Made by a program: the position numbers and the translations under genes. Positions 18,299 to 30,301 of a DNA stretch of 30,301 nt are shown one piece after another. The stretch comes from a virus. The stretch spans positions 1-30,301 of the IMG/VR virus record IMGVR_UViG_3300046373_000070, one strand, 5' to 3'. The notes under the pieces are model-generated. The model was not told the DNA's origin, did not search any database, and saw only the letters and a program-made list of their open reading frames with translations. Each line of letters starts with the position of its first letter. Position 1 is the first letter of the stretch.

Positions 18299-18487
18299 TC
18301 AGGTTTGCGTTGCTGGAATGGGAAGCTTCTGTTCCGGCGATTCACGCGGAACAAAAGTGGCTGCTTTCCCGATTGCTGCCCGAGGAACCACATTCCAGGA
18401 TGGAGTCCTGTAAGGCTGCGTGCTTGGGATTGATGCGTTCCCAAAGGTGCGGCTAGGCACAACTGGGATCTCATGGGGGAGAGTCAT
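18299..18487 (-). CDS. Small proline-rich protein, 62 aa
   Basis: The ATG at 18487 overlaps the clamp stop as ATGA, so translation coupling is likely. The product is rich in P, S and T and has no predicted domain (PSRTFGNASIPSTQPYRTPS). It could be a disordered partner of the clamp; no evidence beyond location. Confidence 0.5.
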   Translation of the reverse strand: MTLPHEIPVVPSRTFGNASIPSTQPYRTPSWNVVPRAAIGKAATFVPRESPEQKLPIPATQT

Positions 18488-19191
18488 GCCGCCACCGGGT
18501 CCGCGTCGGATGGTTGCTTTTCCGGGAGCGGAGCATCGGCAAGTGGCTCAACATAGCCAAAGCGCTTAAACGAATTGAGGCTGCCGCCGTCGCCCCGCAT
18601 CGGCATGACAAGCCCGATCATTTCGGGAATGCTCGTCATTTGCACGACCAGAACCTTATGCTCGTCTTCTTGCCAGAAGGTAACTCCAGTGAACTTGGGA
18701 CTTACGATCTTGGCGAAGCGCGCGAGGTAGTTCGCGTTGAACGACGAGGTGCAGACCCCGTGCTTGAGCTTGGAAAAGTCGGGCACAACCTTGCGCCAGT
18801 CAGGAAACTTGCCGACGATGAAGCACTTGCCGGGCTGGAGGGCAAGTTCCATGCTGGTATCAGGGATGGCGATCTTGGCGCGATTCCCTTCAACGCAGAC
18901 ACGGAAGCCAAGTCCAGTGTTCGGCTTCTTTTGGCTGGCCTTCGCCCCAGCAACCAACACTGGCAAGACTGTGAACGTGGCTTCGTCGGCGCCCTCAATG
19001 CTGCCCTCTTCGTCGTGAATCAGGGCCATCGTGTGGCCGTCCGTTGCCACGAGATAGACCCCGCCCCGTTCTGCCTTCTTGACGTGGATGCCATTCAGGT
19101 AATAGCGAATATCGGCCACGGCCTTGAATGGCATGAGCCGCAACAGGTGTTCTGGCTTGAAACGGATCTTGATTGCGTCGAATTCGTCCAT
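18484..19191 (-). CDS. Two-domain sliding-clamp (DnaN-like) protein
   Basis: The 235-aa protein aligns by eye with domains II and III of bacterial DNA polymerase III beta: DIRYYLNG (27-34) and VATDGHTMAL (48-57) match domain II, FPDWRKVVP (129-137) matches the FPDYRRVLP segment, and LVMPMR (194-199) the C-terminal MPMRL pocket. Domain I is missing, since the protein is about 130 residues short. Such a protein may form a trimeric ring of its own, exchange with host clamp or inhibit it. The ATG at 19191 has AGGAG. The extra C-terminus (200-235) is unassigned. Confidence 0.75.
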   Translation of the reverse strand: MDEFDAIKIRFKPEHLLRLMPFKAVADIRYYLNGIHVKKAERGGVYLVATDGHTMALIHDEEGSIEGADEATFTVLPVLVAGAKASQKKPNTGLGFRVCVEGNRAKIAIPDTSMELALQPGKCFIVGKFPDWRKVVPDFSKLKHGVCTSSFNANYLARFAKIVSPKFTGVTFWQEDEHKVLVVQMTSIPEMIGLVMPMRGDGGSLNSFKRFGYVEPLADAPLPEKQPSDADPVAA

Positions 19192-19857: not shown

Positions 19858-20085
19858 TCAAGCCTCTTGCTTGGCTCTGCGACGGCTGGTGCCCCAGTCG
19901 AAGTCAGGGCACAGCTTTTCTTTGGGGATGCCGCTAACGGCGCTTGCTTTGGCCGCATGAGGCGGCGATACACGCCCGTTTCTCAGCCAGTCGTTGAGCG
20001 TCTGCTTGGTGACGCCGCACGCACTGGCGAATGCGACCTTTGCACCGCGAGGCGCGAGGTATGAATGCAGTTCAGGTAGTGGCAT
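19858..20085 (-). CDS. Cro/YdaS-like repressor, 75 aa
   Basis: Small HTH protein: AKVAFASACGVTKQTLNDWL is the helix-turn-helix and KASAVSGIPKEKLCPDF matches the YdaS/Cro antitoxin family end. The ATG at 20085 lies seven bases downstream of the -10 of promoter A, so the transcript would be leaderless. It should be the first gene of the leftward early operon and, as with Cro, compete with the CI-like protein for the GTACGG operators. The basic tail (SRRRAKQEA) may aid DNA binding. Confidence 0.82.
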   Translation of the reverse strand: MPLPELHSYLAPRGAKVAFASACGVTKQTLNDWLRNGRVSPPHAAKASAVSGIPKEKLCPDFDWGTSRRRAKQEA

Positions 20086-20091
20086 CGCTTG

Positions 20092-20133
20092 AGTATGGCC
20101 TCGCCGTACCTCTGGAGTCAAGCTCAACCGTAC
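20092..20133 (-). promoter_or_regulatory. Leftward early promoter with paired operators (PR-like, unit A)
   Basis: On the minus strand: GTACGGT at 20133-20127, TTGACT (-35) at 20121-20116, GTACGGC at 20109-20103, and CATACT (-10) at 20097-20092. Spacer is 18. Two GTACGG sites 24 bp apart straddle the -35. The unit is nearly identical to one at 21699-21738. Confidence 0.7.
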
Positions 20134-20162
20134 CATTATTTAGCGATATCAAAAGCTTGGCT

Positions 20163-20168
20163 TATGCT
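20163..20168 (+). promoter_or_regulatory. Weak -10 for the CI-like repressor, leaderless start
   Basis: TATGCT ends six bases before the repressor ATG at 20175; there is no ribosome-binding site ahead of the ATG. This would give a leaderless mRNA, as known for lambda cI from PRM. No good -35 is visible, which suits a promoter that needs activation by the operator-bound repressor. Confidence 0.35.
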
Positions 20169-20174
20169 TTTTGC

Positions 20175-20513
20175 ATGACATTTGGCGAGCGGCTGGCTGC
20201 GGCCAGAAAATCAAAAGGGATGAGCCAGGCTGAGCTGGGAGCGGGCTTGGCGGAACATGGCGCGGACGCAGGCAAACAGGTCGTCTCAGGCTGGGAAAAC
20301 AATCGCCACCCACCGAACGCCCGCCAACTAGCCCTTATATGCAAACGACTAGATAAAAGCGCCGATCACCTGCTTTTCGGTTATGAAGGGCTTTCGCCGG
20401 TCGCTGCGGAGGCGGCGCGGGTTATTGATGCGCTGGAGCCGCACGACAAAGAGAGGCTGTTAGCAATCGTGCGCACGTTCGCTCCGCTCAAAGTGTTGGA
20501 GGCTACGCAATGA
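20175..20513 (+). CDS. CI-like repressor without autocleavage domain, 112 aa
   Basis: The start MTFGERLAAARKSKGMSQAE is the typical XRE N-terminus; the HTH continues to VVSGWENNRHPPNARQLALI. A short helical C-terminus (SPVAAEAARVIDALEPHDKE) replaces the LexA-type peptidase of lambda CI, so induction is unlikely to go through RecA-stimulated self-cleavage. It is divergent from the Cro-like gene and overlaps the adhesin-like gene as ATGA. It should bind both GTACGG units and shut off the two early operons. Confidence 0.85.
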   Translation: MTFGERLAAARKSKGMSQAELGAGLAEHGADAGKQVVSGWENNRHPPNARQLALICKRLDKSADHLLFGYEGLSPVAAEAARVIDALEPHDKERLLAIVRTFAPLKVLEATQ

Positions 20514-20935
20514 GACGACTATTTCTGGCGAGTCTGGCTGCGGCGACCGTTGGTGCTGCTGCACAATCGAATCTGCAGATGGTCGCGCAGTCCGGTGATG
20601 GCAACATCACCTACCTCTTGCGGACTGACCGCGTTACCAAGGGGGCGTTTCCCGGCAACTACACAATCTGGGTGTTCGGTTACTCACGACGCGTGGAGCA
20701 ACTGCAATTTGTTGGGCGCCCGAAAGTCCCCTACACGTCTTCCGCCACGCAGTACGCCATCTTCTGCAAGGACGGCTCCTATGGAATTGGACAATCCAGC
20801 TATTACGACGCCAGCGGCAACACAGTCATCACCCTGCCGGGCAACATTGGGAACGCGACTCAGCCTGTGCCCGATACTGTTGGCGACGGCATTGTGCGCA
20901 GCTCCTGTCAATATTTGGGCACGCCCGTCCAATAG
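20510..20935 (+). CDS. Secreted adhesin-E-like protein, probable lysogenic conversion gene
   Basis: A 141-aa protein with a clear signal peptide (RRLFLASLAAATVGAAAQ, likely cut after AAA), so periplasmic or surface. The mature part resembles the small surface-adhesin-E fold in the order YLLRTDRVTKG, YTIWVFGYSR, a FCKDGSYGIGQSSYYDASG strand region and a C-terminal cysteine pair (C89, C135 region). It overlaps the repressor stop, so it would be expressed in lysogens. Possible roles are host adhesion, superinfection exclusion or envelope change. Confidence 0.6.
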   Translation: MRRLFLASLAAATVGAAAQSNLQMVAQSGDGNITYLLRTDRVTKGAFPGNYTIWVFGYSRRVEQLQFVGRPKVPYTSSATQYAIFCKDGSYGIGQSSYYDASGNTVITLPGNIGNATQPVPDTVGDGIVRSSCQYLGTPVQ

Positions 20936-21170
20936 GTCGTTATCCGAGGTCGCAGCCTTCAGGCGCGAGCATCCTTGTCCGTCCACGGGTCTGCGCCGTG
21001 GATCTTGCCCAAACTACCAGGTAGACCACGCCAATCCGCTTTGCGCTGGCGGTAGCGATACCCGCGACAACATGCAGTGGCTCACCGTTGAAGAGCATCG
21101 CATGAAGACTCGCAGCGACGTGAGGATGTGCCGGCTAGAGCGCTTGCGTGAGCGCCGACACGCGGCGTAG
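20892..21170 (+). CDS. HNH endonuclease domain with unclear start
   Basis: The reading frame RREHPCPSTGLRRGSCPNYQ, VDHANPLCAGGSDTRDNMQW and EEHRMKTRSDVRMC is a recognisable HNH domain; His of VDH, Asn of DNMQW and His of EEH fill the usual positions. Relatives usually have a signal peptide and their own start. Here the only in-frame start near the domain is TTG at 20892, without a ribosome-binding site and inside the adhesin gene. The frame is +1 to the adhesin gene. It may be a 5'-truncated gene, or be reached by frameshifting or coupling. Confidence 0.5.
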   Translation: MCAAPVNIWARPSNRSLSEVAAFRREHPCPSTGLRRGSCPNYQVDHANPLCAGGSDTRDNMQWLTVEEHRMKTRSDVRMCRLERLRERRHAA

Positions 21171-21440
21171 CCCTGCGAAGTTCTTACAGCCTTCGCAGGC
21201 GGATCGCTCGCGCACGGGCACCGCTTCCATGCCCAGGATGATCGTGTCTGTGCTGGTGCCGTAGAGCTTCGCCAGTTCGCCGCATTGGTAGGCATCAATG
21301 TCTCGGCGCGCACTCTCCCATTTGGAAACCTCCTGTCTCGTCACACGAGCAACTTCCGCTGCGTCCCTCTGGGATAGGCCGGTGGCAAGCCGAGCATTCT
21401 TCATGCGTTGAGCAATAGCCTTTTTTGATTGTTTGGGCAT
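21135..21440 (-). CDS. XRE-family regulator, 101 aa, convergent
   Basis: From ATG 21440 the protein begins PKQSKKAIAQRMKNARLATG; the HTH runs LSQRDAAEVARVTRQEVSKW. Its C-terminus has two cysteines (SACEGCKN). The gene overlaps the HNH frame tail-to-tail by 36 bases. AAGGA directly abuts the ATG, too close for normal ribosome binding, so translation may be leaderless or use a later start. It faces away from promoter B, whose upstream repeats could be its operators. Confidence 0.75.
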   Translation of the reverse strand: MPKQSKKAIAQRMKNARLATGLSQRDAAEVARVTRQEVSKWESARRDIDAYQCGELAKLYGTSTDTIILGMEAVPVRERSACEGCKNFAGLRRVSALTQAL

Positions 21441-21698
21441 TCCTTGAATGTAACAAGACGTGCTTTCACGAGCCTTAAGCCGATTTCTTACATGTCGCCC
21501 CAGAGGCGCACGCCTGTTAAATGCGCGGCCCCTAGCGTTGCCGCAGAGGCGCATCCCTTAAACATGGGGTGGACGGGTATTCCCGTAGTTGAAGTGGACC
21601 CAGCGGATGATTCTTGTGACCTCCGTCACGGCAAAAGGCCCTTATGCGCGCCACATCGAGAAGCGCGCTAACTAAATGAAAACTCGGTCTAACTAAAA
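21441..21698. promoter_or_regulatory. Repeat-rich non-coding spacer upstream of unit B
   Basis: No convincing gene. It contains an imperfect 24-bp direct repeat (21501-21525 and 21544-21568, both starting CAGAGGCGCA), a palindrome at 21573-21586 (ACGGG, TATT, CCCGT), another at 21616-21629 (GTGAC, CTCC, GTCAC), and two CTAACTAAA copies at 21668-21676 and 21689-21697, 21 bp apart. These look like binding sites for regulators of the rightward operon and of the divergent XRE gene. Confidence 0.5.
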
Positions 21699-21738
21699 GT
21701 ACGGTTGCACTTGACCTGTAGTACGGCTGTGCCATACT
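21699..21738 (+). promoter_or_regulatory. Rightward early promoter with paired operators (PL-like, unit B)
   Basis: GTACGGT at 21699-21705, TTGACC (-35) at 21711-21716, GTACGGC at 21721-21727 and CATACT (-10) at 21733-21738; spacer 16. It matches unit A base for base in the boxes and in flanking GCCATACTTC versus GCCATACTCA. Transcription would start near 21745 and read the plus-strand operon from 21781. Confidence 0.7.
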
Positions 21739-21780: not shown

Positions 21781-22110
21781 ATGGCGCTTGATCACGGAAT
21801 GCTGAATCTGCCGCTTGCCAAGCGCGGAAACATCGACAGTCAGATTGATGCCTACAAGGCACAAAAAGCCGCCGAAGCCCGGATCGCACACAAGACTGCT
21901 TCCAAGCTTCATGAAGAGCAACGCGTAGCAGCCAAAGCCATCCTTGCGTCCAAGGACGAGGCTTTCTTTGTTCGCATGGGCCTGCGCCTTCGCATCACGC
22001 CCAAGCAAGCCGCCAAGAAGCTCAATTCAATGGCGCATTGGGAGCCTGCGCAGATATTGAAGCTCGCCACCACCACCACCACCGTAAGGGCCACGGAGAG
22101 CGCGTCATGA
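21781..22110 (+). CDS. First gene of the rightward operon, basic 109-aa protein
   Basis: ATG 21781 has GGAGAG upstream. The helical, lysine/arginine-rich protein starts ALDHGMLNLPLAKRGNIDSQ and includes AEARIAHKTASKLHEEQRVA and LRLRITPKQAAKKLNSMAHW. This family recurs as an early phage gene of unknown function. Its position, directly after a PL-like promoter, is that of lambda N; a basic helical protein could be an antiterminator, but no boxB or arginine-rich motif is proven. It overlaps the next gene as ATGA. Confidence 0.7.
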   Translation: MALDHGMLNLPLAKRGNIDSQIDAYKAQKAAEARIAHKTASKLHEEQRVAAKAILASKDEAFFVRMGLRLRITPKQAAKKLNSMAHWEPAQILKLATTTTTVRATESAS

Positions 22111-23755: not shown

Positions 23756-24309
23756 ATCCTGAAATCAAAGTTTCCATGAACGACAAAACGCACTACCGTA
23801 AGGCTTTCGATTCGCCGTATCTGTCAAGCGCGGACATTGTTGAGCCGACGCTGCTGACGGTGAAGCATGTTCGGCTTGAGCCCGACCGCACCAAGAAGAC
23901 GAAAGACAAGTTCAATACGGCGCACTTCGTTGAGCGCGAGCTGCGCCCCGGTGAAGCGCTCAAGCCGATGATCTTGAACGCGACCAACAGCAAGACCATG
24001 AAGGGGCTGACTGGCTCAGCATTCATTGACGACTGGAATGATGTGCGCATCACGGTCTATGTCGATCACAACGTCAAGTTCGGCAAGGAGTCTGTGGAAG
24101 GATTGCGGATCAGCCCAATGCCCGCCAATCGGAAGGTTCTGACGCCTGACCAAAAAAAGGCATGGGCGCACGCAAAGGAGGCATACAAGCGCGACGGCGA
24201 CCTTGCTGCGGTGCTGGCCCGTGTCGATATGTCTGAGGAGCATCAGCAGCAACTCGCCGCAGAGTGCATGCTGCCGCCCGAGCGCGTCGAGGAGTCCGCC
24301 AATGTTTGA
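23752..24309 (+). CDS. Conserved exonuclease-partner protein, 185 aa
   Basis: GTGA-overlap start. HYRKAFDSPYLSSADIVEPT, KKTKDKFNTAHFVERELRPG and MILNATNSKTMKGLTGSAFI mark a conserved phage family nearly always next to YqaJ-type exonucleases. Predicted beta-rich core, then a basic helical tail. It may be a single-strand DNA-binding or recombinase-accessory protein; that is inference from neighbourhood only. No annealing protein of the Bet/RecT/Erf type is otherwise visible. Confidence 0.78.
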   Translation: MNPEIKVSMNDKTHYRKAFDSPYLSSADIVEPTLLTVKHVRLEPDRTKKTKDKFNTAHFVERELRPGEALKPMILNATNSKTMKGLTGSAFIDDWNDVRITVYVDHNVKFGKESVEGLRISPMPANRKVLTPDQKKAWAHAKEAYKRDGDLAAVLARVDMSEEHQQQLAAECMLPPERVEESANV

Positions 24310-24940
24310 GTTTCATGACGTTGAGCAGAACACCGAGACGTGGCAAGCCTTGCGCCTCGGGAAAGCGACATGCTCGAACTTTGGGTGCTTTATGGCGAAC
24401 TACGGCGCTGCTTTCGGTGAGCCTGCCAAACGCTATGCACTCCAGATCGCATTGGAAGTGCTGACCGGGAAAAAGGCTGAATTCAGCTTCTCGAACGACC
24501 ATACCGAGCGCGGCCATGAACAAGAGCCGGTCGCCAGGATGCTCTATGCCGATGAGCGATTTTGCGAAGTCACGAATGGCGGGTTCTTCGATCACGGCCG
24601 CTTCGGGGATTCGCCCGATGGGCTGGTGAACTCTGATGGCGTAGTGGAAATCAAGTCGGTAATTGCGCCGACACACTACGCGACGATCCAGCGCGGGAGT
24701 TTTGATCCCGCCTACAAGTGGCAGCTCGTTGGGCACCTTGACTGCACGGGCCGTCATTGGGTTGATTTCATCAGCTACTGCTCCGAATTCCCCGAAGGTT
24801 CGCAATTGTTCGTGCATCGCTTGCGTCGTGCCGATTGCGCGGATGAGTTGAACATGCTTCGTGCGCGCCGCGCTGACTTCCTCAAGCTGGTGGATTCGAC
24901 CATCGACAACATCAGGGCGAAAGCCTTGATTACCGCGTGA
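24302..24940 (+). CDS. YqaJ-type phage exonuclease
   Basis: The 212-aa protein begins FEFHDVEQNTETWQALRLGK; motifs GHEQEPVARMLY (Glu73), the core SPDGLV (Asp106) with VVEIKSV (Glu116, Lys118), and KWQLVGHLDC (Gln141) are the YqaJ/lambda-exo family. It should digest 5' strands of linear duplex DNA for recombination, producing concatemers for packaging. Start ATG 24302 overlaps the partner gene by 8 bases. Confidence 0.9.
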   Translation: MFEFHDVEQNTETWQALRLGKATCSNFGCFMANYGAAFGEPAKRYALQIALEVLTGKKAEFSFSNDHTERGHEQEPVARMLYADERFCEVTNGGFFDHGRFGDSPDGLVNSDGVVEIKSVIAPTHYATIQRGSFDPAYKWQLVGHLDCTGRHWVDFISYCSEFPEGSQLFVHRLRRADCADELNMLRARRADFLKLVDSTIDNIRAKALITA

Positions 24941-28776: not shown

Positions 28777-29210
28777 GCGAATCTGAATATCTCGAACAGC
28801 CAGGCGATCTTTTGCGCTGGGAGTGCGGAAGCGAACCGTTTTGCTTTACTTGGGTCTTATCCCCCGATGCGCCGCACATGCTCATTGATGACATCAACTA
28901 CGCGCCGACTGTAAGTGGCGTGTACGCGCTCAGCGATGAGGACGGCATGCTGCTCTACATTGGGAAGTCACTCTCAATCCAGACCCGCATGGCGCAGCAC
29001 TATTGGGCAATGACGCTACGGCATGGCAAGAGGTTTGCGCGCTTCTCTTGGCTGGAAGTCCCGCCTTTTGCGCTGCAAGGCGTTGAAGTCGCTCATATCC
29101 ATGCGCTTCTGCCTCCTCTGAATATTTTGCTCGAGAGTCCGGTATGGGCTGGCCACAAAGCTTTAACGCAACGTGTTTCTGATGTTTGGGAGTCCGCGTA
29201 TGAAAACTGA
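28773..29210 (+). CDS. GIY-YIG nuclease-family protein, 145 aa
   Basis: GTG start overlapping DUF4326 as GTGA. Motifs: SGVYALSDEDGMLLYIGKSL (48-67), QTRMAQHYW with Arg72 and His76, then a helix EVAHIHALLPPLNILLES with a possible catalytic Glu. This is a second, different GIY-YIG protein in the genome. It may act in DNA cutting, homing or defence; direct roles cannot be inferred from sequence. The N-terminal 45 residues are unassigned. Confidence 0.78.
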   Translation: MSESEYLEQPGDLLRWECGSEPFCFTWVLSPDAPHMLIDDINYAPTVSGVYALSDEDGMLLYIGKSLSIQTRMAQHYWAMTLRHGKRFARFSWLEVPPFALQGVEVAHIHALLPPLNILLESPVWAGHKALTQRVSDVWESAYEN

Positions 29211-29445
29211 GCTCGCTCTTTTGCTTACCCATGACCTCCCAGTGATGAGTCTCGAGGAAATCGCCGATCTGTTCGGCATAGGCCCACGCACACTCGAGAA
29301 CAAGATCTATGCCGGGAGCTGTCCGATCCCAATGTTCAAGGTCGGCGCGAAGTACCAGGCTCACATCGCTGATGTGGCGCGGTACATCGATTCTCAGCGC
29401 GCCGACGCTATGAAAATGCTACAGGATGCCTCGCAAGCCGCATGA
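29200..29445 (+). CDS. Excisionase/AlpA-PrtN-like HTH protein, 81 aa
   Basis: From ATG 29200: KTELALLLTHDLPVMSLEEI then ADLFGIGPRTLENKIYAGSC, a MerR/AlpA-like winged helix, ending VGAKYQAHIADVARYIDSQR. It resembles the pyocin-activator/excisionase group often located just before an integrase. It probably acts as excisionase (direction control) with the integrase 177 bp downstream, or as an activator. It overlaps the GIY-YIG gene by 11 bases. Confidence 0.75.
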   Translation: MKTELALLLTHDLPVMSLEEIADLFGIGPRTLENKIYAGSCPIPMFKVGAKYQAHIADVARYIDSQRADAMKMLQDASQAA

Positions 29446-29570
29446 AAGCTCGCCATGCCGTCCAGTCCATCATGGGTGCCGTCATGATTCGCCATCGGCT
29501 GTAAGTCGTTGATTCTGTTTGCGTCATTGGGAATAGCGTCCACAGGCAAAACACGATACTGCATTTTTAA

Positions 29571-29597
29571 CCAGTGGTTTGCATATCTGTACACTGG
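29571..29597. repeat. Inverted repeat upstream of the integrase
   Basis: CCAGTG and CACTGG arms separated by 15 bp, 26 bp before the integrase ATG. It lies in a 177-bp intergenic stretch (29446-29622) that otherwise holds no gene. It could be an arm-type or autoregulatory site for the integrase or the excisionase-like protein. Confidence 0.4.
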
Positions 29598-29622
29598 CCC
29601 GTTGCTACAGGAGTGCTACGGG

Positions 29623-30301
29623 ATGAGCTCGATTATCAAGGTCGGGGAAAAATGGCGAGCGCAGGTTCGGCGCAAGGGCTCGCCGGTGCTGACAAAGACC
29701 TTCACCACCAAGATTCTCGCTGAAAAGTGGGCTCGAGCTCGAGAGACGGAAATCGAGCACGGGAACGCTGGTGATGCGCCTCCACGGTCCGTCACCTTAG
29801 GGACACTACTTGAGCGACACGAGCTCGAAATAGGCAAAGCCAAGCCGTTTGGCAAAAACAAGGCGTCAGTGCTGAAGCTGATTCATCGGTATCTGCATGA
29901 CGTGCCGGTGCGCGACCTGACGCCAGACAGGATAGTGGAATACATCACCGATGACCGCGCTATAGCGGGCGTTACGGCTAGCATCGACTTGACCTACTTG
30001 AAGGGGGTTTTGAAGATTGCTCGAGCTCTGTGGAGGATGAAGATCCAGCCGGCCATCGTGGATGACGCTCGAGAGATTTTGAAGCACATGGGCTACACGT
30101 TTCGATCCAACGAGCGGGACCGGCGCCCCGAGCCCGACGAGCTCGAAGCATTGCGTGACTGGTTCGGGTTGAGGCCGGAGACGCTGACGATCGATCACAT
30201 CGACTTCATCCTGGATTCCTGCTTTCGACCGCCAAGTGAACTCACCCGTCTACGCTGGGCCGACTTGAACAGGACAGATAGAACCATCGTCATTCATGAC
30301 C
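29623..30301 (+). CDS. int: Tyrosine integrase, N-terminal 226 residues
   Basis: GGAG lies about ten bases ahead of the ATG. The N-terminal arm (SSIIKVGEKWRAQVRRKGSP) and core-binding domain (TLGTLLERHELEIGKAKPFG) are of the tyrosine recombinase family; the catalytic domain begins at about 170, with the first catalytic arginine in DSCFRPPSELTRLRW (Arg202). The remaining catalytic residues lie beyond the window edge. It should recombine attP with the host attB. The coding sequence is rich in CTCGAG and GAGCTC, unlike the rest of the genome. Confidence 0.93.
   Translation, partial: MSSIIKVGEKWRAQVRRKGSPVLTKTFTTKILAEKWARARETEIEHGNAGDAPPRSVTLGTLLERHELEIGKAKPFGKNKASVLKLIHRYLHDVPVRDLTPDRIVEYITDDRAIAGVTASIDLTYLKGVLKIARALWRMKIQPAIVDDAREILKHMGYTFRSNERDRRPEPDELEALRDWFGLRPETLTIDHIDFILDSCFRPPSELTRLRWADLNRTDRTIVIHD

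Follow-up and report, generated by a model that had tools for sequence, protein, structure and literature searches.

The window, that is, the whole 30,301-nucleotide stretch of DNA analysed here (IMG/VR record IMGVR_UViG_3300046373_000070), is a 30.3-kb virus contig whose integrase gene runs off its end. It contains two divergent promoter-like units, A and B, labelled PR and PL below by reference to phage lambda. The minus-strand genes behind unit A encode a Cro-like protein, a weakly CII-like protein, a beta-clamp/RusA-like protein, a replication initiator and NinG, and the plus-strand genes behind unit B are small genes followed by a YqaJ exonuclease, an excisionase and an integrase. A repressor, a likely secreted protein, an HNH frame and, on the minus strand, a second XRE gene lie between the units:

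19858..20085, minus strand: Cro-like 75-aa YdaS-type HTH protein (PHROG 35, E 3e-11)
20175..20513, plus strand: prophage repressor, 112 aa, XRE HTH (HTH_3, E 1.6e-7)
20510..20935, plus strand: cargo gene after the repressor, likely secreted product (Adhesin_E match below the Pfam cut-off)
20937..21170, plus strand: HNH endonuclease frame (PHROG 333, E 3.5e-7, profile positions 33-95 of 138)
21135..21440, minus strand: second XRE HTH protein, 101 aa (HTH_3, E 7e-11)
21781..22110, plus strand: first gene of the PL operon, preceded by a leader and a Shine-Dalgarno-like GGAG
24302..24940, plus strand: YqaJ-type exonuclease of the PL operon (Pfam, E 8.9e-13)
29173..30300, plus strand: excisionase and truncated integrase, with which the PL operon ends (PHROG 1300, E 3.8e-11; PHROG 1, E 1.7e-19)

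The match of the Cro-like protein to the Pfam YdaS family (PF15943; E 1.5e-5, 25.1 bits) was below the cut-off of 30. The name adhesin-like, given to one gene in a sequence-only reading of this DNA, corresponds to a Pfam match under the cut-off, and the gene occupies a variable cargo slot. The HNH frame of the same reading was recovered through its PHROG 333 match; the N-terminal part and an obvious start codon are absent, and the frame is possibly a decayed gene. The product of 18484-19191 (minus strand) showed a weak Pfam match to the DNA polymerase III beta subunit (sliding clamp) together with a strong match to a PHROG labelled RusA-like resolvase, a label which may be wrong.

The twin units were found where the sequence-only reading had placed them, with GTACGG repeats 24 and 22 bp apart as it had stated:

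20133-20092, minus strand: unit A, reading GTACGGTTGAGCTTGACTCCAGAGGTACGGCGAGGCCATACT
21699-21738, plus strand: unit B, reading GTACGGTTGCACTTGACCTGTAGTACGGCTGTGCCATACT

Each has TTGAC and CATACT, the spacer being 18 in A and 16 in B, and the two are the only promoter-like sites between 19600 and 22200. Upstream of the units, the likeness between A and B continues over 27 nt at 81%. The repeats had been taken for direct GTACGG repeats straddling the -35. Because a 17-bp inverted repeat was found at both units, they are instead the left arms of two operators, O1 and O2, so that each promoter carries two copies. O1 has the form GTACGGC-N3-GCCATAC, and its right arm, GCCATAC, supplies the -10 CATACT. 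O2 is GTACGGTTGNNCTTGAC, its right arm being merged with the -35 TTGAC. This overlap of the two right arms with the -10 and the -35, by which a bound protein would block RNA polymerase, is of the lambda type. The fusion of the operator arm to the -10, which had been missed, explains the conservation of GCCATACT. The four sites are:

20093..20109, minus strand: O1 of unit A (PR), GTACGGCGAGGCCATAC, right arm overlapping the -10 CATACT (20097-20092)
20117..20133, minus strand: O2 of unit A, GTACGGTTGAGCTTGAC, with the -35 TTGAC within the right arm
21699..21715, plus strand: O2 of unit B (PL), GTACGGTTGCACTTGAC, with the -35 TTGACC at 21711-21716
21721..21737, plus strand: O1 of unit B (PL), GTACGGCTGTGCCATAC, with the -10 CATACT at 21733-21738; 13 of 14 arm positions match

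The O2 of unit A is a weaker palindrome (8.3 bits), and with O2 scores of no more than 8-9 bits in the window, its conservation is due in part to the -35 itself. No third operator was recognisable in the window.

GTACGG alone was mildly enriched in the window (12 sites for 5.8 expected). The full palindrome GTACGGC-N3-GCCATAC reached 13 of 14 arm matches only at 20093-20109 and 21721-21737, the two sites being tied as the best of the window, and the next best site in the 30 kb had 11 of 14. With a matrix derived from other phages only, the units scored 45.7 and 42.9 bits; the third-best score in the 30 kb (14.7) corresponded to unit B read backwards, and among 60 dinucleotide-shuffled versions of the window the highest score was 11.7 bits. 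In unrelated loci the PL-type pattern occurred about 0.006 times per 3 kb. The long operator structure of the window is not a chance occurrence.

Relatives were collected from both the DNA and the protein side. A first DNA pattern of the promoter unit, used without protein information, retrieved nine virus stretches, five of which encode a repressor 43-51% identical to that of the window. A looser DNA pattern also retrieved nine virus stretches, eight of them loci of the repressor family; the ninth, L148, encodes no relative of the repressor. It was set aside with L122, L126, L128, L119, L151 and L152, which likewise matched a pattern and encode no such relative. The 17-bp pattern alone was too short for scanning the collection, giving at least 119 matches, mostly due to chance. 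A profile of six repressors found 12 virus loci, one being the same prophage as the single genome match of this profile, in Variovorax sp. WDL1. The window and its 12 relatives, whose repressors are 41-54% identical to that of the window, make up 13 distinct loci in about nine lineages. When 800 genomes from the family and order of Variovorax were searched, the sole addition was a copy of an already known locus. As single-sequence queries, the repressor and the Cro-like protein of the window had no matching relatives among viral contigs. A protein search of phages yielded just two weak Staphylococcus matches at 29.5%, the repressors of the relatives matched nothing in phages or plasmids, and a megablast of 15 kb found no match in phages.

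The scan of related phages that the sequence-only reading had suggested revealed both units in all 13 loci, divergent and flanking the repressor. One unit is always located upstream of the repressor and points to cro, and the other is on the far side of the repressor, firing away from it. Across the family, 0.6-1.7 kb separate the two units. When the matrix was trained without the tested locus and its close kin (leave-clade-out), the two units ranked first and second in 13 of 13 loci. The proposal that they drive a Cro and replication operon on one side and an exonuclease-integrase operon on the other holds for the gene content, and as an arrangement kept in the 13 loci it has a comparative basis. 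At PR the gap from the -35 TTGAC, or its variant, to O1 is 7 nt in 13/13 loci and the O1-O2 distance is 24 bp in 12/13; at PL the gap from the -35 to O1 varies from 5 to 7 nt. On this comparison, the pairing of the sites and their fixed geometry appear to be properties of the whole family. The exception at PR is L137, in which O2 is located 10 bp, or one helical turn, further upstream. This detached O2 has arms GTACGGG and GTCCGGC which both match well and form a better palindrome, and this speaks for O2 as a site of protein binding rather than a -35 alone. In L131, L134, L135, L137 and L139, a third operator-like site was observed 68-70 bp upstream of the PL O1; in several loci it adjoins a conserved TATATGC-like block and a AACAAATTCTAA-like stretch.

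The cargo gene that follows the repressor is different in almost every relative and is absent from L129 (post-repressor genes are at 20510-20935 in the window, 674-1393 in L123, 2880-3113 in L113, 8604-9077 in L125, and in the interval between repressor and PL in L133 and L141). The products are often small secreted or lipoprotein-like proteins, a pattern suggestive of a cargo slot that is expressed during lysogeny. As the units flank this variable gene and are inverted relative to each other, they might be thought to serve recombination, either as the ends of an invertible segment or as an exchange point for cassettes. We consider this most improbable, since the repeats are imperfect, their spacers differ, and the orientation is the same in all 13 loci.

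PR and PL operators are more alike when taken from one phage than when taken from different phages: their summed identity was 370 for a permutation mean of 337, with none of 20,000 permutations as high, and with one phage per lineage the permutation fraction was 9e-5. The left arms are conserved, and those of one phage change together. This bears on the possibility that the units are simply two strong promoters of host type, resembling each other by their -35/-10 consensus, as TTGAC and CATACT at normal spacing in both might indicate. The behaviour of the left arms, which lie outside the promoter elements, and the detachment of O2 from the -35 in L137 make this explanation very unlikely.

The variation of the operators was also found, on comparing the loci, to accompany that of the repressor. 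Every half-site of L130 that is free of the -35, six in total, has A at position 6, where the corresponding half-sites of the other twelve phages all have G; L130 is the only phage with Gln for Arg at repressor residue 44, just past the recognition helix, and its repressor has ten other unique residues within the first 75. A search for further phages of the L130 operator class returned L130 itself alone. The second case concerns L129, L133 and L141, where left arms GTTGGG or GTCTGG occupy 11 of 12 places; in the remaining ten phages the figure is 2 of 40. These three have Ala at residue 35, the second of the recognition helix, and the other ten have Gln; no other residue of the first 75 separates them from the rest. 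The residue 44 correlation comes from one phage, and that of residue 35 is only suggestive because it represents one event in what is probably a single clade. This repressor-operator covariation is the most interesting part of the system.

These correlations also help to decide which protein uses the sites. The recognition helix of Cro proteins of the family (SKQTVNDW) is much like that of the repressor (SKQSVSDW), and the sites could be bound mainly by the Cro-like protein, or by the second XRE protein, with the 112-aa repressor acting elsewhere. The operator changes, however, follow repressor residues 35 and 44. Moreover, the cro position of L129, L135, L136 and L137 is occupied by a Cro-like protein quite different from that of the other loci, with the same operator unchanged, and the second XRE protein is not seen between the repressor and PL in the relatives. 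Binding mainly by one of these other proteins is thus improbable, and the repressor remains the favoured ligand of the operators.

In an AF2 model of the repressor (pLDDT 85.5), the recognition helix corresponds to residues 34-41. The best fold match of the model was the operator-bound N-domain of P22 c2 (PDB 3jxb, 2r1j; TM 0.9 on the target, 34% identity), and P22 c2 was also the closest sequence by profile (E about 1e-8). Val33 of P22 c2 aligns with repressor residue 35, the residue that is Gln or Ala in the family. P22 c2 carries a C-terminal peptidase/dimer domain, which the 112-aa repressor lacks: among the 13 repressors only HTH Pfam matches were found, and no C-terminal S24 self-cleaving domain. 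The cut-offs of the NCBIfam DicA and RstR families were not reached (33.9 for 101 bits and 31.8 for 80 bits, respectively). To judge from sequence, the switch would work like that of lambda, yet its repressor is not a CI-type protein.

Both regulatory genes start immediately after their predicted -10:

20083..20097, minus strand: CATACT-CAAGCG-ATG, with the -10 six nt before the cro start and a predicted leaderless start at 20085
20140..20174, plus strand: predicted PRM, TTAGCG-N17-TATGCT, separated by six nt from the repressor ATG

The distance from CATACT to the cro start codon is 6 nt in 12 of 13 loci and 5 nt in L133. The repressor starts 6 nt after its -10 in 12 of 13 loci, of which 11 have TATGCT-N6 and L129 has CATACT-N6, and 7 nt after it in L136 (TAAGCT-N7). 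The start codons are thus located at the expected transcription start, with no room for a Shine-Dalgarno sequence, so that the cro and repressor mRNAs are probably leaderless; in the window, the PL transcript differs in having a leader, with GGAG ahead of the first ATG. Leaderless starts appear to be fixed across the repressor family. The trait is not new, as it was reported for both the repressor and cro mRNAs of phage PY54 (PMC4488713) and for the repressor mRNAs of CP-933P paaR2 and lambda cI (PMC8630535). A coding explanation was considered, in which an 18-aa N-terminal extension of Cro, open in the window, would run through the operator; it was rejected because the 5-nt gap of L133 breaks the frame and because the motif also occurs outside cro, at PL. 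Since O2 is 6 bp from the predicted -35 of PRM (20140-20145), activation of PRM by the repressor as in lambda is possible.

We propose, as very probable on comparative grounds, that the region is the immunity switch of a temperate phage, in which two divergent early promoters each carry two copies of a 17-bp operator that is bound by the repressor and probably by the Cro-like protein. In this model, the -10 lies under O1 and the -35 under O2, with about two helical turns from one site to the other (in the window, 24 bp at PR and 22 bp at PL), and repressor dimers on both sites would block the two elements of both early promoters. PR (cro, replication) and PL (exonuclease to integrase) would be shut together and lysogeny would be held; loss of the repressor would free both. 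Transcription of the repressor and cro genes probably sets in at the start codon itself, and the Cro-like protein, with its repressor-like recognition helix, may use the same sites. We infer binding, repression, leaderless transcription and this sharing of sites from the conserved pattern. Induction must work otherwise than by self-cleavage, for which the repressor has no domain, for example through an antirepressor.

The parallel with lambda PR and PL, with a different operator and a small repressor, that the sequence-only reading had drawn thus appears well supported by the comparative evidence. As in the lambda immunity region, divergent early promoters flank the repressor gene, repeated 17-bp operators cover both, and the PR operon has the order cro, CII-like gene, replication, NinG. 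The OR1-OR2 spacing of lambda is 24 bp, equal to that of O1-O2. Unlike lambda, the window has a different operator sequence, two sites per promoter and no OR3-like site at PRM, a 112-aa repressor without a self-cleaving C-terminal domain, and a cro mRNA predicted to be leaderless. The PaaR2/YdaS/YdaT system of CP-933P has in common a small repressor, a YdaS-type Cro, a leaderless repressor mRNA and palindromic operators in the divergent promoter region; it differs by its GTTTAGTAA half-sites and by the four repeats reported between its two genes, and in the account given of it paaR2 is called leaderless and ydaS is not so called (PMC8630535). The immB region of the telomere phage PY54 shares the leaderless repressor and cro mRNAs; its Cro binds a single site, its prophage is a linear plasmid, and the account of this region describes no PL-like twin (PMC4488713).

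The analysis assigns an operator sequence to a repressor family that has no close match among the phage and plasmid records covered by the search, and the immunity groups of these prophages become readable from sequence. The family offers a clean natural case of a repressor and its operator changing together, with a specific residue-base prediction. Tentatively, and with slightly more doubt than belief, we suggest that one or two repressor residues (35 and 44) are enough to change the operator, at every free half-site together, both mRNAs being leaderless as a fixed family trait. The code within this proposal would be Arg44 with G6 and Gln44 with A6, and bases at positions 3-4 that differ according to whether residue 35 is Gln or Ala. 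If true, this would provide a readable recognition code for peptidase-less phage repressors, and the family would be a natural set of immunity specificities.
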